Positions 204-10,659 of a DNA stretch of 51,272 bases are shown here, one piece after another. Position 1 is the stretch's first letter, and every line of letters starts with the position of its first letter. The notes under the pieces were generated by a model. The model was not told the origin of the DNA and ran no database searches. It saw only the letters and a program-made list of their open reading frames with translations. Both the position numbers and the translations under genes were made by a program. Source of the DNA: an uncultured Ignavibacteriota bacterium (GTDB lineage: Bacteria; Bacteroidota; Ignavibacteria; Palsa-1295); assembly GCA_903900335.1 (NCBI GenBank), contig CAIUMP010000052.1:1-51272 (forward strand), read 5' to 3'.

Positions 204-1235
204 ATGATGAAACGTGCCGCATTCCTTCTGTTCGCATACCTTCTACTCCTTCCCTCCGCCCGAGGACAGAACGGTGATACGACACAAAGCCGAGAGCTGT
301 TTTCTCAATTTAGCAATGGGACGATTCTCCGCTATATTATGGGGCCCATCCTACATAGTGATTCCGGCCATAGGACATTTATTGCCTTTTCGAATGATAC
401 GCTCGACGCGTTTCCCAACCACTTTCTTAAATCCATACCGTTCCGAATTGATGCAGAGGACACGATCTGGCTGATGCGCTGGCTGTGCTTTGATGAATCA
501 TCCCTCCAAGGTTCAACGGCTGCAGCTGCGCAAGCGATGTCAACGATGGATTCAGCACTAAGTTATTGGCGAGCAGCATACGCCGGGAAAGAGTTCACAT
601 TGGATACTTCTCTTTTCAGTGCGACATCGACCGTGAGCTATATACTCGAAATTAGGCGGGCTAGCGACAACGCAGTGTTATGGTCTGCCGACACTGTCCG
701 GTGCTACAAGAACTCTGCCGGTAATTTGAGATACGCAAACTTCCCCTCGTCATTTGAGCGGAAGTTTATTGTGCCACCAATCACTTGTGCAGGAGGCACT
801 TGTTACCTTGCTGTACGTACGGTGCTTGGCCTGCCAGCAGGAGTAAGCCTCTCCTACTCAGGTGTAACAGGTTTTCAGAATAGCTCCGAAATTAACCTCA
901 AGAGGGAGTCGTACTCCGATTATTTGGAAGGTTATCCAGCGCTCAAACGCGCCGTTGGGGTTTCGGAGCCAGTTCAGGTCAAGTTAATACTCGGTACTAT
1001 CAATGTAAGGGAAGTGTCCGACAACGGTATTGAGATCTCCACGAACTCGACTAGTACAGGAGATCTCACGATTGAAATTGTGGATCTGGTTGGGAAGAAG
1101 GTCTTTTCATCCCAGGAAGGTGTGACTCCGGGAACGAACAAGTTCTACATCTCAACTGCGAACATATTGCATGGCAGCTATATTATTCGGATTTTTTCGA
1201 CCACATCCACCGTCAGTGCAAAATTCCAATTCTGA
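204..1235 (+). CDS. Secreted protein with T9SS-type C-terminal sorting domain
   Basis: A 343-residue exported protein of unknown function. Residues 1-22 form a signal peptide (basic MMKR, a leucine-rich core, cleavage after ARG/Q). The body is beta-rich with no catalytic motif I recognise. The last 70 or so residues look like a Por-secretion C-terminal domain: alternating strands, IEIVDLVGKKVFSS, a glycine turn, then GSYIIRIFSTTSTVSAKFQF, the usual order for T9SS cargo that is translocated and anchored at the cell surface. The ATG at 204 follows a GAGGTAG-like site and places the signal peptide at the N terminus. A second small secreted protein follows closely at 1274. The surface location is inferred from the tail. 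Confidence 0.8.
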   Translation: MMKRAAFLLFAYLLLLPSARGQNGDTTQSRELFSQFSNGTILRYIMGPILHSDSGHRTFIAFSNDTLDAFPNHFLKSIPFRIDAEDTIWLMRWLCFDESSLQGSTAAAAQAMSTMDSALSYWRAAYAGKEFTLDTSLFSATSTVSYILEIRRASDNAVLWSADTVRCYKNSAGNLRYANFPSSFERKFIVPPITCAGGTCYLAVRTVLGLPAGVSLSYSGVTGFQNSSEINLKRESYSDYLEGYPALKRAVGVSEPVQVKLILGTINVREVSDNGIEISTNSTSTGDLTIEIVDLVGKKVFSSQEGVTPGTNKFYISTANILHGSYIIRIFSTTSTVSAKFQF

Positions 1236-1273
1236 GTTTGAAGTTACTGACTTCCCATCAAATTTTAACAATT

Positions 1274-1594
1274 ATGAATACTAACGGCAGACTCGCTCAA
1301 CTATTTATCGTTGCTACCATTGTTGTCAATAGCATTTGGATTCCAAACCTGGCGTCGGCGGACCCTGACTTCAAGCATTTTACGACGTACAAGGGGGATC
1401 ATTATTTTCCCAACGTAGATGCGCCAGCGTTTAAGGACAAGTTTAGTGTTTGGAATGATGACCAGGGCAACATCTGGTATAATAACTGTGATAATAACGA
1501 CTGGTCGAAAAATCATGTGCAAGTTATCCGCCACCGGCGTCACAAGCACCACTTTGCAACGAGTAACCGTTGTGCAAAGGCTCCATTGGCGTGA
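1274..1594 (+). CDS. Small secreted hypothetical protein with basic His-rich tail
   Basis: A 106-residue protein I do not recognise. The reading frame extends back to a TTG at 1238, but the ATG at 1274 puts the signal peptide first (basic start, hydrophobic core LFIVATIVVNSIWI, then ASA/D), so I prefer it. The mature part is rich in Asp, Asn, Trp and Tyr (HYFPNVDAP, WNDDQGNIWYNNCDNNDW) and ends in a basic stretch RHRRHKHHFATSNRC. Two cysteines could form a disulphide. The stop of the preceding gene is 38 bases upstream, so the two are probably cotranscribed. The histidine cluster might bind metal or a polyanion, but nothing in the sequence proves it. Confidence 0.6.
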   Translation: MNTNGRLAQLFIVATIVVNSIWIPNLASADPDFKHFTTYKGDHYFPNVDAPAFKDKFSVWNDDQGNIWYNNCDNNDWSKNHVQVIRHRRHKHHFATSNRCAKAPLA

Positions 1595-1623
1595 TTTTCT
1601 AAAGGAGAATATTTGGTCGACTG

Positions 1624-1664
1624 AACGGCGTGTCTAGTACCATCAAGGTGCCTGGCTCGCCGTT
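1624..1664 (+). terminator. Hairpin after the small secreted gene
   Basis: Perfect 7-base arms AACGGCG (1624-1630) and CGCCGTT (1658-1664) enclose a 27-base interior that contains a minor ACC/GGT stem. It lies 30 bases after the stop at 1594. There is no strong T run, so termination is probable rather than certain. Confidence 0.4.
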
Positions 1665-1794
1665 TGCTATAATTAGGCCGTTGATCGCTTCGTAACTGAT
1701 AGCTTAAGAAGATTTTATTGCACTAAATCGTGTTCTATTCCCGAACTATGGAAGCCGCACTTTCGTAGTATCCTCCTGAAAAATAGAACATCCG

Positions 1795-3057
1795 ATGAAA
1801 CATACGACTGTTTTCTTTCGCATCCTATGTCTCCTGTGCGTCTTAATCTCCACGGCCTCGGCCCAAACCGCTGACCAACTTGCGGATGCCATCAAGAAAG
1901 ATGACGGCTCTGGCGTTGCAGCCTTGGTGAAGCAAGCACCTACACTCGCTACGAAAGCGAACGAGGACGGCTGGACGCCTCTGCATGTCGCTGCGTTCTG
2001 GGGTAAAGCAGGTGCTGTGTCGGCGCTAATAGATGGCCATGCACCTATTGATGCCAAGGATGGCGATGGCGAACGCCCGCTCAGTCTGGCGGCCTCGAAC
2101 GGCCATGCAGCGGTCGTGCGCTTACTGTTGAAGGCAAAATCGAATCCGAATACGACAAACGAGGGAGGGGAGACCCCGCTTTATGAAGCTTCCGCGAGTG
2201 GTAAACTGGATTGTGTCGCCGCACTGCTCGAAGCGAAGGCAAACGTGAACAAGGCCAGCGACGCTGGTCTTACCCCATTGGATGTGGCATCTTCGGGTGG
2301 ATACAACGATGTCGTTACCTTGCTTCTCAAGAACAAGGCAGCGATCAATGCGCAAGTACATGCCGAAGGATCTATCGTCAACGGCTACACACCGCTTCAC
2401 TTTGCCGCTGAGGGCGGGCATGTGGATGTCGTGCAGAATCTGCTCGATCATGGTGCCAAGATCACAATTCGCGGCGCGAATGGTAATCTGCCGATCCATC
2501 TCGCCGCCACGTATCACGGTAACGATTCCATTCTCAAGATCATGGTGGATCACGGTGCTTCTATCAATGCCCTTAACAAATTTCACCAGACTCCATTGAT
2601 CCTCGCAGTCTGGGAAGCGAAGGCGATGACGATCAACGCGCTCTTCAATCTTAATGCAGATGTGAATATCTCCGATAGCGCGCAGGACAGTCCGCTTCAT
2701 CTCACCTCCCATGCTGGCCGCGCGGAGCTAACGGGTCTGTTGCTCACACATGGCGCTAAGATCAATGCCCGCAACTCATCGGGTCAAACGCCGCTGATGC
2801 TGGCCGTGGGTGGCAACTACCTTCAAGTCATTAACGAGGAGCTTCACAACGGTGCAGACATCTCGATCAAAGACAAGGATGGACGCACTGCACTCTACTA
2901 CATCGCTCCTGGCGACTTCATGTTCGTTGCCAGCAAGCTACTTGAGTACAAGGCCGACATGAAGGTCACGGACAAGGATGGACTTACACCGGTTCAGTAC
3001 TACCGTAAGAAGGGGCAGGACGCCATTGCGGACTATCTATTAGAGCAAAGTCATTAA
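1795..3057 (+). CDS. Exported ankyrin-repeat protein
   Basis: A 420-residue protein with a signal peptide (MKHTTVFFRILCLLCVLIS, cleavage after ASA) followed almost entirely by ankyrin repeats. About eleven 33-residue units are visible, with hallmarks such as GWTPLHVAAFWG, GETPLYEASASG, GYTPLHFAAEGG, GQTPLMLAVGG and GLTPVQYY. Ankyrin solenoids bind proteins; the export signal places this one in the periplasm or outside. The stop TAA shares a base with the ATG of the MFS gene at 3057 (TAATG), so the two are translationally coupled and probably work together. Bacterial periplasmic ankyrin proteins are known in stress protection, but the partner here is unknown. Confidence 0.85.
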   Translation: MKHTTVFFRILCLLCVLISTASAQTADQLADAIKKDDGSGVAALVKQAPTLATKANEDGWTPLHVAAFWGKAGAVSALIDGHAPIDAKDGDGERPLSLAASNGHAAVVRLLLKAKSNPNTTNEGGETPLYEASASGKLDCVAALLEAKANVNKASDAGLTPLDVASSGGYNDVVTLLLKNKAAINAQVHAEGSIVNGYTPLHFAAEGGHVDVVQNLLDHGAKITIRGANGNLPIHLAATYHGNDSILKIMVDHGASINALNKFHQTPLILAVWEAKAMTINALFNLNADVNISDSAQDSPLHLTSHAGRAELTGLLLTHGAKINARNSSGQTPLMLAVGGNYLQVINEELHNGADISIKDKDGRTALYYIAPGDFMFVASKLLEYKADMKVTDKDGLTPVQYYRKKGQDAIADYLLEQSH

Positions 3058-4361
3058 TGCCAGATAGCAAGGTCTCGCACTCGGGGAGTCGCCCCCCTGA
3101 GGCGGATGATGCTTCATCCAAGCGCCACGATCCATACGCGGCCTTACGTGTTCGCGATTTTCGCATTCTCGTCCTGACGCGGCTCGCGATCACGATCGCG
3201 AGCCAGATGGAGGTCGTCGTCGTCCGATACCAGGTCTACGGTCTGACACATGACCCGCTGCCGATCGGTATTGCGGGTTTGGTCGAGGCAATCCCCGCGC
3301 TTATCATCGCTCTCTTCGCAGGTCATGTCGCTGACAGAATGGATCGCCGAAAGCTGGTGATCTTTTCCCGTGCCGTGCTCATCTTCTCAGCGGGCGGCCT
3401 CCTGGCACTGGCGAATGTGATGCCCACCCTTTATCCCACCACGGGTATTTGGCCGATCTATGCTATGATATTCATTGCGGGCGCGGCCTCAGGGTTACTT
3501 AGCCCGGCTTCATTTGCTTATAACTCAGAGGTGCTCCCGAAGGAGTTGTACGCCAACGGCGCAGCATGGAATAGCTCCACCTGGCAGACCGGCGCGATCC
3601 TTGGCCCGACCATCGGTGGACTTATCGCGGGATTCGCCGGTATCTCCACTGCATACACTGTTGATGTTGTGCTGACGGCAGTTGCCGCGTTCTCGGTGTT
3701 CCTTATACCTGCGCGGCCATTCGAGCGCAGGGTGAAAGAGGAGTCCGGTGTGCAGAGTATCATCGCGGGTTGGAAATTCGTCTTCAAGCATCAGCCTATT
3801 CTCGGTGCGATCTCCCTAGATCTTTTCGCGGTGCTCTTTGGCGGGGCAGTGGCGATGCTGCCCGTCTATGCGCAGGACATATTCCATGTTGGCCCGGAAG
3901 GACTCGGACTATTGCAAGCAGCACCGTCGGTTGGCGCTGTGATCGTCTCGGTTCTCTTCACGCATTACAGACTGCGCGGCAATGTTGGACGCCAGATACT
4001 TCTTACCGTTGCGGCATTTGGTATAACGATCGTGTTGTTTGCGATCTCTCGAAATATCTATGTTGCATTGGCACTGCTCGTTCTATACGGCGCAACGGAT
4101 AGCGTGAGCGTTATTATCCGCTCGACCGTTGTGCAAATGATGACGCCAGACGCGATGCGCGGCAGGGTGGCGGCCATCAACTCCATGTTTATAATCACCT
4201 CGAATGAGATCGGCGCATTCGAGTCCGGCGCGGCGGCAAAGCTGATGGGGCTGGTGCCCTCCGTGCTGTTTGGCGGCGCAATGACGCTATTGACGGTTGG
4301 ATTTGTAGCTCTCGCCGCACCAAAACTCCGGGCGCTCCGGGGCGAGCACATGGAGCAATAG
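3057..4361 (+). CDS. MFS transporter, EntS/MFS_3-like exporter
   Basis: A 434-residue major facilitator superfamily protein with about 12 hydrophobic segments after a 30-residue hydrophilic N terminus. The family motif A between helices 2 and 3 is clear at about residues 88-100 (GHVADRMDRRKLV). The segment NSEVLPKELYANGAAWNSSTWQTGAILGP (quoted as NSEVLPKEL and NGAAWNS...GAILGP) is typical of the EntS-like group that exports siderophores or small amphiphilic compounds. It overlaps the ankyrin gene by one base and ends with a TAG stop. The substrate cannot be read from sequence; drug or metabolite efflux is the default inference. Confidence 0.85.
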   Translation: MPDSKVSHSGSRPPEADDASSKRHDPYAALRVRDFRILVLTRLAITIASQMEVVVVRYQVYGLTHDPLPIGIAGLVEAIPALIIALFAGHVADRMDRRKLVIFSRAVLIFSAGGLLALANVMPTLYPTTGIWPIYAMIFIAGAASGLLSPASFAYNSEVLPKELYANGAAWNSSTWQTGAILGPTIGGLIAGFAGISTAYTVDVVLTAVAAFSVFLIPARPFERRVKEESGVQSIIAGWKFVFKHQPILGAISLDLFAVLFGGAVAMLPVYAQDIFHVGPEGLGLLQAAPSVGAVIVSVLFTHYRLRGNVGRQILLTVAAFGITIVLFAISRNIYVALALLVLYGATDSVSVIIRSTVVQMMTPDAMRGRVAAINSMFIITSNEIGAFESGAAAKLMGLVPSVLFGGAMTLLTVGFVALAAPKLRALRGEHMEQ

Positions 4362-4381
4362 AAAAAATATTTTGGATTTTC

Positions 4382-4410
4382 TTGCTTTTCGGATTTTGAT
4401 GTAGTATATT
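4382..4410 (+). promoter_or_regulatory. Near-consensus sigma-70-type promoter
   Basis: TTGCTT at 4382-4387 and TATATT at 4405-4410 are separated by exactly 17 bases, 57 bases before the ATG at 4467. This would drive the small anchored-protein cluster. The TAGTATATTC form of the -10 region recurs upstream of the pyrophosphatase gene at 18801-18810. Confidence 0.55.
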
Positions 4411-4466
4411 CGTACTCGCTACTTTGTGTCAGTGTTCCGTTGTGTTCACGATTTTGCAACACCCCA

Positions 4467-5126
4467 ATGACTTCGAGGAATAGACTCGTTACCTATGTTG
4501 CAGCCGGGATGATTGTCGCGGCAGCGGCAACATACATCGCAGTTAAAGGACCAGGCACGCTTCCTCCCCCAGGGCCGCCGCCACATCCCCCTGTGCCGAA
4601 GAGGATGGTAACCACCATCAAATTCGATAAATATTGTAAGCCTTCCGGATTTTCGAAATACTCCATTCATGTAGATAGCGGCCAAAAGCTGATCTCTTGG
4701 TGGATGGACTCGGTAGGAGCTGGCTGGATGACCATTGACCCACCGCCGGGGTGCCAGGATATTGCGATCCTGCAATTCACGCCCGTGGGGCAACACGCGT
4801 ACCCTTCAATTACGGTTAGTGCGTGTCTGCCGCGAACAAGCATTAAGTGGAGTACTTCCGCTCCTGGTGTGATGCTGAATGCGTATGATGCCAGCAGGTC
4901 TTATGAAAATTTGGCTCCACTCGGGACCGCTGGCTCGACGACACCGTTCACCGCAATTCTTTCCGGCCCCAACATTAACGACGATGTCTCGCTCGTCCCC
5001 ATGCTACCCGGCAATTTGCCGTTCGACACTATCAACTGGGATGAGGCCACGCAAAGCTGGATCTGCAAGACAAGCCCGACCCCGGCGAATCCGAGTGGGA
5101 TTTCAATTACGGTTCAAGTACAATAA
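4467..5126 (+). CDS. Membrane-anchored protein with C-terminal GISITVQVQ motif (member 1)
   Basis: A 219-residue protein of unknown function. The frame opens at a TTG (4440), but the ATG at 4467 gives a classical anchor or signal: MTSRNRLVTYVAAGMIVAA, then a proline-rich linker (PGTLPPPGPPPHPP), then a beta-rich domain with a few cysteines. The last nine residues GISITVQVQ are identical to the end of the next protein, and related ends occur in the two downstream frames. No domain is recognised. There is no clear Shine-Dalgarno site. A promoter lies 57 bases upstream. The protein probably sits on the outer face of the inner membrane or is exported, with a conserved terminal beta strand. Confidence 0.65.
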   Translation: MTSRNRLVTYVAAGMIVAAAATYIAVKGPGTLPPPGPPPHPPVPKRMVTTIKFDKYCKPSGFSKYSIHVDSGQKLISWWMDSVGAGWMTIDPPPGCQDIAILQFTPVGQHAYPSITVSACLPRTSIKWSTSAPGVMLNAYDASRSYENLAPLGTAGSTTPFTAILSGPNINDDVSLVPMLPGNLPFDTINWDEATQSWICKTSPTPANPSGISITVQVQ

Positions 5127-5153
5127 TCTAATAAAACAAGGAGATAAGCTGAA

Positions 5154-5591
5154 ATGGAACTCATAAAGCGGCATGGGATTTCAATCATCGCTTTGGTGGC
5201 GGCAATCATCGCTATTGTTATGGGAGGTAAGAGCAGTAATCACCCGTATGGTTTTGTAGACGGGCAGTCATCCTCAGTAAATCCTTCCATCGTTAATTTC
5301 CAAGCACCAGCGGGGGTGAGGTGTCGAATTCATGTTGTTGATCAATCAACTGGTGCTGCAGTAGGTGGTGTAGGGACTCAAACCCCGGGTATTGTGCAGT
5401 CGGGAGTCGCGTATACGATTCCAAAAGCTAGCCAATATCGAATGTTTCCTCAGTTTCTCGATCCAGAATCGAACACGTGGAGATACTTTGAATTGAAAGA
5501 CCCTGCTCCTGGAAATTCAGTTTTTGTTGGTTCTTATTCGGATGGGAATGGTGCTCCCCATGGAATTTCGATTACTGTTCAAGTTCAGTGA
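5154..5591 (+). CDS. Membrane-anchored protein with C-terminal GISITVQVQ motif (member 2)
   Basis: A 145-residue paralogue of the preceding protein by architecture: a short basic start, one hydrophobic segment (ISIIALVAAIIAIVMGG, residues 9-25), a small beta-rich domain, and the identical nine-residue C terminus GISITVQVQ. Apart from the ends, the two proteins are not obviously similar. A strong AAGGAG site about 9 bases before the ATG supports the start at 5154 and contrasts with the weak sites of neighbours. It follows member 1 by 27 bases, so an operon is likely. I do not recognise a family and assign no function. Confidence 0.65.
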   Translation: MELIKRHGISIIALVAAIIAIVMGGKSSNHPYGFVDGQSSSVNPSIVNFQAPAGVRCRIHVVDQSTGAAVGGVGTQTPGIVQSGVAYTIPKASQYRMFPQFLDPESNTWRYFELKDPAPGNSVFVGSYSDGNGAPHGISITVQVQ

Positions 5592-5649
5592 AAACTGATT
5601 TATTGTTTTTTTTGTGTCGGCTCGCATCTACACCCTACTAATCAAATCC

Positions 5650-5832
5650 ATGAAGAACTCAAGAACAAAACTCTGGGGGGGGGGGGCAGTTGTCCTCCTA
5701 ATCATCGCTACATTCGTACTGAAGGCTTACGCTGATCAGCAAAACTTCACTGGCCAAAATCAGTCCGGTATAATGATCACTGTCTCCGTAAATTGTGCGG
5801 ACGGAGTGCATCAAATGAGCATACCGGCGTAG
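5650..5832 (+). CDS. Short membrane-anchored protein carrying a 12-G tract (member 3)
   Basis: A 60-residue frame from the ATG at 5650 with a single hydrophobic segment (AVVLLIIATFVLKAYA) and the sequence SGIMITVSVN, close to the GISITVQVQ end of members 1 and 2. Codons 9-12 lie in a run of 12 G (Trp-Gly-Gly-Gly). Only the present tract length keeps the frame open: one shift meets TAA at 5699-5701 and the other meets TGA near 5733. The frame stops at TAG (5830-5832), but the same frame stays open from there to 6001. It is therefore either a short protein or the front part of a broken, longer one. Confidence 0.45.
   Translation: MKNSRTKLWGGGAVVLLIIATFVLKAYADQQNFTGQNQSGIMITVSVNCADGVHQMSIPA
5675..5686 (+). 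repeat. 12-G homopolymer inside a start-proximal coding region
   Basis: Twelve consecutive G bases fall just before the membrane segment of the small gene at 5650. Tracts of this kind are classical sites of slipped-strand phase variation, and here a gain or loss of one base would truncate the protein at once. Confidence 0.75.
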
Positions 5833-5844
5833 AGTTCAGCGCAA

Positions 5845-6003
5845 ATGAGCGTTGCCACCGTGAACTCAATCACAATCAATAATCAGACACTAAATGCCTG
5901 GCAAAATGGCCCGGTGACGCTTTCAGATAACAGTACTGCAAATGTTATTTGGAGTGGTGACGGCCTGGGTGGAATCCAGATACAAGTGATGATACAGCCG
6001 TGA
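5845..6003 (+). pseudogene. In-frame continuation of member 3 ending in a GIQIQVMIQ motif
   Basis: A 52-codon frame (ATG 5845, TGA 6001-6003) lies in the same reading frame as the gene at 5650, separated only by the TAG at 5830-5832 and four codons. It encodes a beta-rich segment with no membrane anchor and ends GGIQIQVMIQP, the same kind of terminus as members 1 and 2. Its length and lack of an anchor suggest it is the C-terminal half of a fourth-type member split by a nonsense change. TAG is used as an ordinary stop elsewhere in the window (for example 4361, 15833, 17735), so readthrough is unlikely. Confidence 0.4.
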
Positions 6004-6028
6004 CCGTACGGAAATTTAACTTCTTGTG

Positions 6029-6054
6029 ATTCAGGGAGCATTTGCTCCCTGAAT
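6029..6054. terminator. Strong bidirectional hairpin between convergent genes
   Basis: Perfect 11-base arms ATTCAGGGAGC and GCTCCCTGAAT flank the loop ATTT. The hairpin lies 25 bases after the small-protein cluster and 14 bases past the end of the STAND ATPase gene on the other strand, so it can serve both. Confidence 0.7.
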
Positions 6055-6067
6055 ACTTTCCCTATGA

Positions 6068-9000
6068 TTATTCCTTAGCAGAAATGATTCGCTTCGGCAT
6101 GACATCCAAAAGACTTTCGTAATCCTCTCTTGATCTCTGGAAAGAGTAATGGCCTTCGCCTACAACACTGGAGTACTTTGGCAAATAGTGTTCGAATAGT
6201 TGCTTCGAGGTTGCGTAATTTCCAGCGAGAGCATAATGCTTCGCAAGCGTTAAATAGCAAAGCAGGGTTTCCGCATGATCTTCGCCGCTTGTTCGTTGAT
6301 GGAAAGTGAGCACCTCCTTCAAAAGAATTTCTGCCTCCTCAAAGCGGTGTTGACCGCTAAGAGCGATGCCGATGTTAATCTTAAGCTTAAGTGTATTTGA
6401 ATTCGTTTCGCCTTGTTGGGCGGAGATCTGCGGCAAAAGTTCTCGCCAAGTCTTTTCAGCCTGAACGAAGTCTTGCTTTGCATACGCCGCCGCACCGAGA
6501 TTCATCACAGCCGAAAGCGTATTGGCATGATTCGGGCCAAGCATCCTGCGATTTATTGCAACTGCTCCCTCAATAAGAGGAATCGCTTCATCAGGCCGCT
6601 TACGTGTAATCAAAATCGCACCAAGGCTGTACATGATTTCAGCAACTTCAGGGTGTTGATCTCCATTGACACGTTTGCATCCCGCGAGAGCTTCTTCTAA
6701 CGTCTTCTGTGCCTTCTCGAGATCTCCCTTCTGATACGAAACAGCCGCCATGCTTCGTAGAATTTCAATCTGCTTTGAATTGATAAGACCTTCGGTCTTC
6801 TGGCAATTGGCCAGTGCACGTTCGAAGAGTGATTCTGCTTGATCCAAGTTTCGGAGTGCGTAACGGAGAGAGGCTAGGTTGATTAGATTATCTACTATCT
6901 TTGGGCTGTGAGCACCGAAGCATGTTTCGCCCAGCGCCAGTGCCTCATTAAGGAGCTTCGCGCTCTCGATATACTCGCCACGGTCAGTGCTGATTTGTCC
7001 AAGCGCGTTCAAGGCCTTCAATCGAGTTTCCTCTCTACCAGGGATAGTTCTGACGCGCGTGAGAAGTTCTTCGAAAAGCGGTCGAGCACGATTGAAACGT
7101 CCAGCAGTTTGATAGAAGTCTGCCACGGCGAGAAGACCAGAAAGATACTCTTCCGTTTCTGGACGCGACATCTTCAATTTCTCCAACTCAGAATCGTAGG
7201 CATTGTCGAACTCAATCTTCGTGGCAACCCACTCTTGTAGCAGTTGGTATTCGGCGTCACGTTTGGAAAACGCACGCAGCACGTCGAGCCGACTCAGGAA
7301 TTTCACTAATGCCTGCTCTTCCCCCGCCTCCTTCCAATGCCACGGCTCCTCGTCAATTCTCCTCGCTGAGACAGGCTGGGTGGAGAAGTACTGGGCAAGT
7401 GCGCGGTGGCGGGCACGGGCGATAGCGGGGTTTCCGAGGTAGCGCTTTTCCACGGCGCGGCGGAGATAGTCGTGGAAGAAGGTGAACCGACCGTTGGGCT
7501 TCATCAGGTGGTAGTCGAGCGCGAGGAGGAGGATCGACAGATGCACGCGGTTTCCTTCTGAGTCCCCCTTCGATGGCGGCGGAATTAGCTCCATCAGTTC
7601 GGACTCCGACAGTCCGTGCCTCGACTGTGCGATGTACGAAAGCACGTTGACGACAAGGTCGCGACCGTAGTCGTTCTCCATGCGTTCAAGTACAAGCTGG
7701 AACAGCTCGGCGAGGTCGTTCGAGCGGAGATAGTGATTGATCAGTTCGTCGAGGAGACCGTAGTCTGCAGTGAGCCGCAGTTCTTCCAGCAGTGTGCGCA
7801 AAAAGAGTGGAGAGGCGGCTTTCGGATCGCGGGCGATCTTGCGGAGTTGCTCAGAACTCAGCCCCTTGTGATACTCGCCTAAAAACCGGACAATAAGCGC
7901 CTCGCGCTCCATGTTGTCGAGCGGTTTGAGCGCAAGTTGTTGCCAGCCGCTCTTTTGCAGATTGTCGAGTGAGTTGCCGGGAGTAGTTGTGACGATCAGT
8001 CGGATATTCGGCGGCACATACTCCGGGAGCCATCCGAGAAGATTATCTGGCTCCGGAAGTTGATTCACCGCATCAATGACCAGGAGCAGATTCTCATCCT
8101 GCACGCGCGCCAGCCAGGTGGGGAGAAGCTGCTCGAGTTGCTCCTTGGTGTCCGGAATGTCCTCGGCAATTGCGTAGCGTTCTTTGATCTCCCCAAGCAC
8201 ATGGCGCAATATCGTCTGTGCGTCGCTGCCAGATGGCGACGCCCCCACAAAGTGTGCGATAGTGAAGGCCTTAGGATGTGTGCGCTGATGGTAGGAGGAG
8301 AAGTAGGCCATCAGCGCGCTCTTTCCCGCGCCCGATACTCCGTGCACCACAAGTGGCCCGCTGTCACTCGCTATGAACTGTTGCAGCGCTTGATAATTTG
8401 TCTGATTGGCAATGTACGCTTTGCGTCGAGTTGAGGCGAAGACCTCATGCAACCGACGCTCGATGGCAAGCGGGGAATCCGTCCCGAGACTCGGGAAGTC
8501 GCGGTCAAGGACGCTCAGGAGATCCTGAAAGACCATCTCACCGAATTCGTCCAGCGAAGTAAATGTGCGGAGCGGACGCCCGCTAGCGATGATCCTCTCT
8601 TGTAAGGTGTCGAGTTTTTTGCGGTCTTCAGAAGTCCCCTCCGATGGACGCGAATAGACAAATGCGCCGGTGGCCGTACTCGGATCGAGGAGGAAGCCCG
8701 ACATAAATTCCAATTCCACCAAACTCGCGCCGCCAATGACCGCATCTTCGATCCAGGGATAGCGATTGAGGAGTTGATAATCCTTTTGTACCTCAGCGAG
8801 AGGCGGCATCCAGCCGTACCGGTCGCCAAGAAGCCCGAGAAAGTAGGGGCGGCAATGGTCTATCTCTTCGAGGCACGTGCGAATGACGCGTCCCAGCGAG
8901 GTATCTTCATCCGTGAGGCCCCAGCGAAGATCGATCTCTGTAAACTCTATCCCACGCTCACGGCAGGCAGCGCGAACCTTAGGGAAGATCTGCTTCATGA

Positions 9001-9070
9001 GATGGCTTCGCTCCGCGTGAAGATCACGAAAGGTGGAGGAGACGAATACTCGGATATCGCGGCGGTCCAT
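6068..9070 (-). CDS. DUF4062-NACHT-TPR STAND ATPase
   Basis: A 1,000-residue protein when started at the ATG at 9068-9070, which begins directly with the DUF4062 fold (RDIRVFVSSTFRDLHAER, then EIDLRWG, FLGLLGDRYGW). The frame runs 36 codons further upstream, but that stretch lacks family similarity. A NACHT-type NTPase follows: Walker A GVSGAGKSAL at about residues 244-253 and Walker B LLLVIDAVNQL at about 325. Residues from about 700 onward are tetratricopeptide repeats of the kinesin-light-chain type (for example ALNALGQISTDRGEY, NLINLASLRYALRNLDQAESLF). STAND proteins of this layout are sensors: TPRs recognise a trigger, NACHT oligomerises, and the N-terminal domain signals or acts. Antiphage roles are known for bacterial NACHT proteins, but this one has no accessory gene on its strand. 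Confidence 0.85.
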   Translation of the reverse strand: MDRRDIRVFVSSTFRDLHAERSHLMKQIFPKVRAACRERGIEFTEIDLRWGLTDEDTSLGRVIRTCLEEIDHCRPYFLGLLGDRYGWMPPLAEVQKDYQLLNRYPWIEDAVIGGASLVELEFMSGFLLDPSTATGAFVYSRPSEGTSEDRKKLDTLQERIIASGRPLRTFTSLDEFGEMVFQDLLSVLDRDFPSLGTDSPLAIERRLHEVFASTRRKAYIANQTNYQALQQFIASDSGPLVVHGVSGAGKSALMAYFSSYHQRTHPKAFTIAHFVGASPSGSDAQTILRHVLGEIKERYAIAEDIPDTKEQLEQLLPTWLARVQDENLLLVIDAVNQLPEPDNLLGWLPEYVPPNIRLIVTTTPGNSLDNLQKSGWQQLALKPLDNMEREALIVRFLGEYHKGLSSEQLRKIARDPKAASPLFLRTLLEELRLTADYGLLDELINHYLRSNDLAELFQLVLERMENDYGRDLVVNVLSYIAQSRHGLSESELMELIPPPSKGDSEGNRVHLSILLLALDYHLMKPNGRFTFFHDYLRRAVEKRYLGNPAIARARHRALAQYFSTQPVSARRIDEEPWHWKEAGEEQALVKFLSRLDVLRAFSKRDAEYQLLQEWVATKIEFDNAYDSELEKLKMSRPETEEYLSGLLAVADFYQTAGRFNRARPLFEELLTRVRTIPGREETRLKALNALGQISTDRGEYIESAKLLNEALALGETCFGAHSPKIVDNLINLASLRYALRNLDQAESLFERALANCQKTEGLINSKQIEILRSMAAVSYQKGDLEKAQKTLEEALAGCKRVNGDQHPEVAEIMYSLGAILITRKRPDEAIPLIEGAVAINRRMLGPNHANTLSAVMNLGAAAYAKQDFVQAEKTWRELLPQISAQQGETNSNTLKLKINIGIALSGQHRFEEAEILLKEVLTFHQRTSGEDHAETLLCYLTLAKHYALAGNYATSKQLFEHYLPKYSSVVGEGHYSFQRSREDYESLLDVMPKRIISAKE

Positions 9071-9240
9071 TATTTGTTGGTAACTAGAATGTGGACGATG
9101 GATGACGCTACATCCATGGAGACAGATTCTTCGGTGAAGATTCACACAAGATTTGCACCAATAGGAATGCCACTCCAAGATTCTCGGTTCCTTTAATAAC
9201 CAGTCGAATCCCGGATTCCAAACATCTACGTAAAGATACC

Positions 9241-10659
9241 ATGCTTTCGCTACAATTCCTCGGTGCAGCCGGTCAGGTGACAGGCTCCAAGTATTTTCTT
9301 CGGACCGCTACCCATCGTGGTGTAATGGTTGATTGCGGTCTCTTTCAGGGTGGGCGAGAATTGCGCGAGATGAATTGGAATCCACTGCCGATCCAGATCT
9401 CGGACGTCGCGAATGTCGTCCTGACCCACGCCCACTTGGATCACACGGGTTACCTGCCGCGCCTGATGAAGAGCGGGTTCAAGGGTCAGATATGGTGCAC
9501 GTCATCGACATACGATGTCGCACAGTTCATTCTTCGCGACTCCGCGCATCTTCAACAGGAGGATGCGTTGCACGCGAATCACCATCATTTCTCTCGTCAC
9601 AAGCCCGCGCTGCCACTCTATACTCCAGAGGATACGGAAGCGGTGCTCGGGCTTTTTCACGTTCAGGATCGTCACAAGAAGAAAATTCTACCAGATGACC
9701 TGAGCTTTGAGTATTCTAATGCCGGTCATATTCTTGGCTCTTGCTCCATATTAATGGAAAAACGATTCGCGGAGTCCGAAGGTGGCCACGCCCCGATTAG
9801 AGTGTTGTTCTCCGGCGACCTTGGCCGCGAGAAGCCGATCTATCTCGTTCATCGCGAAGCACCACCAGCGGCCGATATTGTCATCTGCGAATCCACGTAC
9901 GGAGATAAGCTCCACCACCCGGTTGCACCATCGGACGAACTGCTCGGCATCATGAAGGAGGCGATCGCAAGTAAGTCCGTACTCGTAATTCCGGCGTTTG
10001 CGGTTGATCGCGCCCAGGAGTTGATCTTTTGCTTACATGAGCTCTTTCGTGATAATCAAATTCCATCCGTTCCTGTCTTCGTAGATAGCCCAATGGCAAC
10101 AGGCGTAACCGCATTGTATGAGAAGTATCCGGACGAGCACTGCATTCCCTGTGATCTTATGCAACAGCCAGGTGAGAATCCTCTTTCATTTCCATCGCTC
10201 AAGTTTACGCAGACGCCAGAGGACTCGAAACATTTGAATGAACTTAAGGGCCCCGCCGTCATCATCAGCGCTAGCGGTATGGCCACTGGTGGGCGCATCA
10301 TGCACCATCTCATCAATCGGTTGCCTGATCCAAACACCATCGTGCTCTTCACGGGGTATCAAGCGGAAGAGACGCTTGGCAGACTACTCATGGAAGGCGC
10401 ACATTCGGTGAGTATTTTTGGAGAAAATATTAAAGTGGCGGCCCGAATTCAAACCCTCACTAATTTCAGCGCACATTCCGATCAGCGGGAGATCATGGAT
10501 TGGTTGAAACAGATTCCCGCACCACCAAAGCGCCTGTTCCTAACCCATGGTGAAGACGGACCGCGAAAGGTGCTGAAGGAATTGGTGGAGAAAGAACTCG
10601 GATGGAACGTCGCCATGCCGAAGCTTAATGAGATCGTAGATCTGACAACAATTTCGTAA
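9241..10659 (+). CDS. Beta-CASP metallo-beta-lactamase-fold RNase
   Basis: A 472-residue zinc-dependent nuclease of the CPSF73/YSH1-like beta-CASP group, which cleaves RNA. The metal motif HAHLDH is at residues 63-68. Further ligands appear in GHILGSC and FSGDLGR. The beta-CASP insertion carries IPAFAVDRAQEL and VDSPMATGVTALY, and the RMMBL-type end contains NFSAHSD followed by a late THGE. The length is normal for the family. The ATG at 9241 begins the core fold at once (MLSLQFLGAAGQVTGSKYFL). It runs divergently from the STAND ATPase. The stop TAA is two bases before the ATG of the next gene, so they are cotranscribed. Confidence 0.92.
   Translation: MLSLQFLGAAGQVTGSKYFLRTATHRGVMVDCGLFQGGRELREMNWNPLPIQISDVANVVLTHAHLDHTGYLPRLMKSGFKGQIWCTSSTYDVAQFILRDSAHLQQEDALHANHHHFSRHKPALPLYTPEDTEAVLGLFHVQDRHKKKILPDDLSFEYSNAGHILGSCSILMEKRFAESEGGHAPIRVLFSGDLGREKPIYLVHREAPPAADIVICESTYGDKLHHPVAPSDELLGIMKEAIASKSVLVIPAFAVDRAQELIFCLHELFRDNQIPSVPVFVDSPMATGVTALYEKYPDEHCIPCDLMQQPGENPLSFPSLKFTQTPEDSKHLNELKGPAVIISASGMATGGRIMHHLINRLPDPNTIVLFTGYQAEETLGRLLMEGAHSVSIFGENIKVAARIQTLTNFSAHSDQREIMDWLKQIPAPPKRLFLTHGEDGPRKVLKELVEKELGWNVAMPKLNEIVDLTTIS

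Follow-up and report, generated by a model that had tools for sequence, protein, structure and literature searches.

NACHT-TPR proteins are NLR-like switches, and for NACHT and other NLR-like receptors of bacteria little is known about the signals that they detect. bNACHT and the other NLR-like STAND defence proteins combine a NACHT switch with C-terminal sensor repeats and an N-terminal effector domain, and after a limited literature search we know of no described NACHT case with an exchangeable small beta partner encoded tail-to-tail with the receptor. In the FxSxx-COOH systems, an AP-ATPase that bears TPRs is linked to small, fast-diverging proteins with a conserved C-terminal peptide (Kaur et al. 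2020, PMC7159879). DUF4062 has been reported in a preprint as a TIR-like NADase with anti-phage activity, and the Swarozyc proteins tested there act alone and sense the phage portal protein, with no small partner described in the sections of that source on which we draw (PMC13174449).

The window analysed here, a stretch of 51,272 nucleotides from an uncultured Ignavibacteriota bacterium, contains an intact gene for a STAND protein of the DUF4062-NACHT-TPR type on the reverse strand (6068-9178, likely start ATG 9070), tail-to-tail with three small forward-strand genes, ORF1, ORF2 and ORF3. This convergent gene, which the sequence-only reading of the locus had missed, is in our analysis the one most likely to explain the C-terminal sequence shared by ORF1 and ORF2. 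Its product matched the Pfam families TPR_12 (2.5e-48), DUF4062 (1.7e-12) and NACHT (7.9e-9), with Walker A and Walker B motifs reading GVSGAGKS and LLLVIDAVN, and no export signal was detected in the protein, which is presumably a cytosolic receptor. ORF3 lies 65 bp from the NACHT stop, and ORF1 and ORF2 stand directly upstream of it on the same strand, with successive gaps of 27 and 58 bp. The gene has the DUF4062 domain in common with Swarozyc (PMC13174449), and the SSTF and CLEEI regions of this domain are well conserved in a motif alignment. Here the domain is fused to NACHT-TPR and placed beside small variable proteins, and some relatives have lost it. What would set the locus apart from bNACHT and similar proteins is a small beta protein, encoded tail-to-tail, that serves the receptor as its own partner and is exchangeable but for a constant end.

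By analogy, the closest known counterpart of ORF1-3 and the NACHT-TPR gene is the FxSxx-COOH system. The likeness would consist in a small diverging protein, conserved only in its C-terminal stretch, that accompanies a STAND NTPase bearing C-terminal TPRs (here 6068-9178), and distant TPR matches on plasmids carry the annotation fxsT. Judged from their sequences, however, ORF1 and ORF2 would not be assigned to the FxSxx-COOH systems: the motif here is a hydrophobic beta strand, GIxIxVQ, rather than FxSxx, RxD or an acidic stretch, and there is neither a zincin peptidase nor a radical SAM/SPASM gene among the genes scanned (204-10656). In addition, the gene order here is convergent instead of operonic, and NACHT takes the place of the AP-ATPase.

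ORF1 (4467-5126, forward strand; start ATG 4467, stop TAA 5124-5126) encodes a candidate STAND partner of 219 residues, with an N-terminal anchor, a proline-rich linker, a beta-rich body and the C terminus GISITVQVQ. ORF2 (5154-5591, forward strand; start ATG 5154, stop TGA 5589-5591), which has an upstream Shine-Dalgarno-like site (AAGGAG), encodes 145 residues arranged as an N-terminal anchor, a beta-rich body and the same C terminus. The sequence-only reading had described two adjacent proteins with an identical nine-residue end, an N-terminal membrane segment and unrelated-looking bodies, and this description was confirmed: the final nine residues are identical, each protein has a hydrophobic N-terminal segment, and with the last 11 residues removed the similarity of the bodies falls to the level of shuffled sequences (p = 0.36). 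In the pairwise comparison, the matching stretch P-x-GISITVQVQ scored E = 0.002. The GISITVQVQ codons with their stops read ggg att tca att acg gtt caa gta caa TAA in ORF1 (motif at 5097-5123, forward strand) and gga att tcg att act gtt caa gtt cag TGA in ORF2 (motif at 5562-5588, forward strand), so that five of the nine codons differ, all five synonymously and with zero amino-acid changes, and the stops are TAA versus TGA. Because all of the codon differences are synonymous, the protein sequence of the end has been held in both genes, and on this comparison neither a recent DNA copy nor pure chance would account for the identity. In the 4.0-Mb genome, the pattern GI-x-I-x-V-x-[VI]-Q-stop occurred twice, in ORF1 and ORF2, and 0 times in the reversed control.

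No whole-protein relatives of ORF1 or ORF2 were found in 100 relative genomes, viral contigs and plasmids, nor of ORF2 in phages; a match in G072 at 1e-4 was discarded because it contained seven stops. Neither protein matched Pfam, PHROGs or PADLOC or had a significant NCBIfam match, weak Pfam matches to Enas and SprA (E 0.03-0.04) being taken as chance, and a sequence search of the PDB gave nothing usable. The trio of ORF1-3 downstream of the MFS gene (3057-4361) had no counterpart in the three congeners examined. Single-sequence structural models of ORF1 and ORF2, too poor for a fold search, were all-beta, with final strands at residues 212-218 and 135-141, respectively. A terminal strand lies over GISITV in these models, which at pLDDT 42-52 prove little.

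The functions first suggested for the shared end, sorting and pilus-type donor-strand pairing, were not borne out. The Por_Secre_tail of T9SS cargo and the donor strands of type V pilins resemble it as conserved C-terminal beta elements on otherwise unrelated proteins, but differ in that cytosolic relatives here bear the same end. ORF1 and ORF2 lack a match to Por_Secre_tail, which the neighbouring gene at 204-1235 does match, and have neither a Pfam or NCBIfam pilin match nor a Cys lipobox in their N termini; an export signal is also lacking from many of the proteins that share the end.

Sixty-one genomes proved to contain relatives of the 6068-9178 gene, and retrieval of the sequence 3' of these relatives gave 41 DUF4062/NACHT genes with a usable flank. 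Partners were called by eye from gene order and open frames, without an annotation pipeline; the L253 partner lies within a long open frame and has an uncertain start, and two candidates were counted for L254. A small beta-rich convergent gene was present beside 24 of the 41 genes, typically 40-330 bp away. In the family to which the window belongs, 13 of 14 genes of the class of about 940-1010 residues had a convergent small partner (two of the 14 being fragmentary), compared to none of the long (about 1100-residue) and short (about 590-residue) subtypes; in another family, two genes of about 1100 residues (L242, L243) did have one. The 17 DUF4062 genes without such a neighbour were mostly of the long or short subtypes. 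For DUF4062 genes on two plasmids (Chloroflexota and Rhodococcus), none of the features listed was a convergent gene of small size, and the association is therefore not universal for DUF4062. Since the convergent order of NACHT and small genes recurs, the location of ORF1 and ORF2 is not accidental. The partners comprised lipoproteins (L133, L177, L205, L249, L255), proteins with a signal peptide (L058, L203), an anchored protein (L256) and cytosolic proteins (L202, L204 twice, L208, L219, L220, L251, L252, L254, L257), and a search of 11,488 frames with phmmer and a profile of f4 partners revealed no homology between them and the bodies of ORF1 and ORF2.

Other genes recur in these neighbourhoods. 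An exported C39/C70-like papain-fold peptidase is encoded in some of the NACHT units (L133 7345-8094, L204 3750-4514, L206 2097-2864, L208 5180-5884), which also encode an anchored protein of about 230 residues with an IYDTALKxL-type stretch. TPR proteins with a C-terminal LuxR-type HTH were found beside small beta genes and NACHT units in L132 (3826-5415), L245 (4347-6053), L254 (4673-6418) and L251 (4257-5945).

The terminal strand also recurs in a second taxonomic family, whose partners end in ...DTIGITVVVQIGVPINVVP (L251), ...DTIGITIIVQVGIDPTTDG... (L257), ...AVGITIVVQVGSGPATGPGE (L253) and ...SSVGITIVVQADVV... (L245). All four carry GIT[IV][IV]VQ, which was found in 0 of 5262 control frames. 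The pattern GI.[IV].VQ, derived from the motif of the sequence-only reading, occurred within the last 45 residues of four of the 24 partners outside the window (L245, L251, L253, L257), compared to 0 of 1070 composition-matched frames rich in T/S/V/I/G/N and 0 of all 5262 length-matched frames taken from this DNA (p 2e-7). A less strict pattern for the strand, picked after the data had been seen, was present in 13 of the 24 partners versus 86 of the 1070 frames (p 1e-8); this signal may be partly due to the fold alone, alternating beta sequence being typical of a last strand. The expectation that the motif would be met in other genomes held for the strand free of the stop requirement and failed for the stop-anchored form: a scan of 293 further genomes of the class gave no match to it, true cases having been missed because the strand there precedes a short tail. 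A motif scan of viral contigs gave no match.

Comparisons between related units revealed how differently the body and the C-terminal end of these proteins behave. In the tandem units of L204, the NACHT proteins are 74% identical and the partners only 29%, with ends reading GSGIVIIVMGGGGGPE and DAGITIQITGGGGGPE; a differing body on an almost identical end is the picture also seen in ORF1 and ORF2, here in a different genus. Between L219 and L255 the NACHT protein is 71% identical and the partners are unrelated (28%), the partner having been replaced altogether. In L251 and L257, Pfam recognised NACHT and TPRs but no DUF4062, and a partner ending in GITIIVQV or GITVVVQI is still present, so that the terminal strand accompanies NACHT-TPR rather than the effector domain DUF4062. 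The DUF4062 region is degenerate or missing in one family (L251-L254, L257, L249), in which NACHT, TPR and small partner are retained. The proposal that the end is a selected element, and not merely what is left of shared bodies, thus stood: its conservation is at the protein level and confined to the end, and GIT[IV][IV]VQ and looser forms of it recur elsewhere on unrelated bodies.

We give an even chance to the reading that ORF1-3 are small, fast-diversifying, beta-rich partners of the adjoining DUF4062-NACHT-TPR protein, an NLR-like STAND receptor whose NACHT-TPR part reads the constant strand. According to this reading, the body of the partner and its export signal would be exchanged or would diverge quickly while the C-terminal strand stays constant. 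The strand could be bound by the TPR surface, as an added edge strand or as a peptide, or alternatively could be the part that becomes exposed once the variable body meets its target, and it would thereby control both the switching of NACHT and the effector, the TIR-like DUF4062. The body would decide which target is recognised, or what is delivered, and in ORF1 and ORF2 we would have two such partners, which differ in body but turn an identical end towards the receptor. Beyond this, we tentatively suggest, as a possibility with rather less than even prospects, that the locus is a two-part NLR-like conflict or recognition module in which a receptor composed of NACHT-TPR and a TIR-like DUF4062 is served by exchangeable small beta proteins, each with a C-terminal strand that is constant and faces the receptor, and with a hypervariable body that is bait, ligand or antigen-like, several bodies per genome being carried on one end as in ORF1 and ORF2. 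What we observe are two ends that stayed identical while silent sites changed, a conserved convergent gene order, a strand that recurs among the partners and bodies that diverge fast; physical contact, the direction of control and a role in immunity or conflict are what we infer from this. If the genes beside such receptors do encode dedicated, variable partners whose docking strand is constant, the partner that senses could be found in sequence data by its end and its tail-to-tail position, specificity could be tested through body swaps on one tail, and the logic of a variable precursor with a conserved C terminus, so far that of FxSxx-COOH, would extend to NACHT receptors.

The main difficulty for a partner read by NACHT-TPR is topology, since the bodies of ORF1 and ORF2 look to be outside and the receptor is presumably cytosolic. 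ORF1-3 look anchored or exported and some other partners are lipoproteins, whereas many others are cytosolic; for the former, direct contact is not obvious because the NACHT protein has no export signal. In addition, neither ORF1 nor ORF2 shows full-length homology to any of the partners. In another account, in our judgement unlikely, the end would be no more than the final strand of a small beta-sandwich fold common to ORF1 and ORF2; the two genes would be old duplicates, their bodies would have drifted while packing held a core strand, and no partner would be recognised. The all-beta models with their terminal strand, weak as they are, the frequency of the loose pattern in beta-rich control frames and a gene order that could mean a simple accessory role are all compatible with such packing. 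What packing alone does not readily accommodate is identity at nine of nine positions beside bodies at shuffled level, or a GI.[IV].VQ pattern lacking from every control frame yet present in the partners of another family; moreover, in L204 the identity extends into a flexible GGGGGPE tail, which cannot be a packing core.

The exported and lipidated state of many partners would also suit a reading, which we consider improbable, in which the role of effector, as toxin or surface-displayed weapon, falls to the small proteins, the NACHT-TPR protein only senses a trigger, and the common end serves export, processing or release. The papain-fold peptidase of four units (L133, L204, L206, L208) would be a candidate processing enzyme, and precursor cleavage is the mode of action proposed for FxSxx-COOH systems (PMC7159879), but the window cluster and most units have no peptidase, the same end is found on cytosolic partners, and ORF1 and ORF2 match no toxin family. 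We regard it as very improbable that two orphan surface proteins, ORF1 and ORF2, came to lie beside the NACHT gene by accident and had their ends matched through short gene conversion or recombination. This would agree with the lack of homologues in everything searched and with the GGGATTTCAAT 11-mer that is common to the end of ORF1 and the start of ORF2; however, five synonymous differences with no amino-acid change point to prolonged selection since the copying, if there was any.

The third and fourth frames, which had been counted in the same tandem family on the strength of SGIMITVSVN and GGIQIQVMIQP, proved to be one gene, ORF3 (5650-6003, forward strand), broken by an in-frame TAG (5830-5832, forward strand), so that the idea of a tandem family with a shared end stands for ORF1 and ORF2 but not for these frames. 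TAG is a normal stop in this genome, because the MFS gene ends in it, and ORF3 was read through for searching only. The 5' part of ORF3 contains a run of 12 G (5675-5686, forward strand) that is possibly phase-variable or assembly-prone; this run and one of 17 C at the start of the contig (18-34) are the longest homopolymers of the window, where phase variation or assembly error is possible. A single-sequence search with the read-through found relatives in its own genome and in most genomes of the family (best E 9e-8), and the profile of what we define here as the A1 family, which includes ORF3, matched the read-through over the whole domain of about 90 residues (111 bits, E 7e-32). A1 members are exported beta proteins of about 115 residues, with one to four copies in each of the 12 genomes, out of 13 in the family, that have them. 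They carry no conserved tag: SGIMITVSVN falls on an internal strand, and conservation does not extend to the end represented by GGIQIQVMIQP. ORF1 and ORF2 were ruled out as members (E 0.09-0.3 in a three-sequence search; -0.2 and -3.9 bits).

Twenty-two A1 genes (L078-L084, L087-L089, L124-L131, L138-L141) adjoin, mostly divergently, a gene for an alpha-helical protein of about 500 residues (profile A2) that has no Pfam or NCBIfam match, and the two form a conserved two-gene module. Three A1 members without this neighbour (the window, L132 and L133) lie beside other TPR proteins, of the NACHT-TPR or TPR-LuxR type. In several loci the small A1 gene is followed directly by a gene for a sigma-factor-like or HTH protein (L129 6920-7432, L130 5676-6068, L131 6690-7229).
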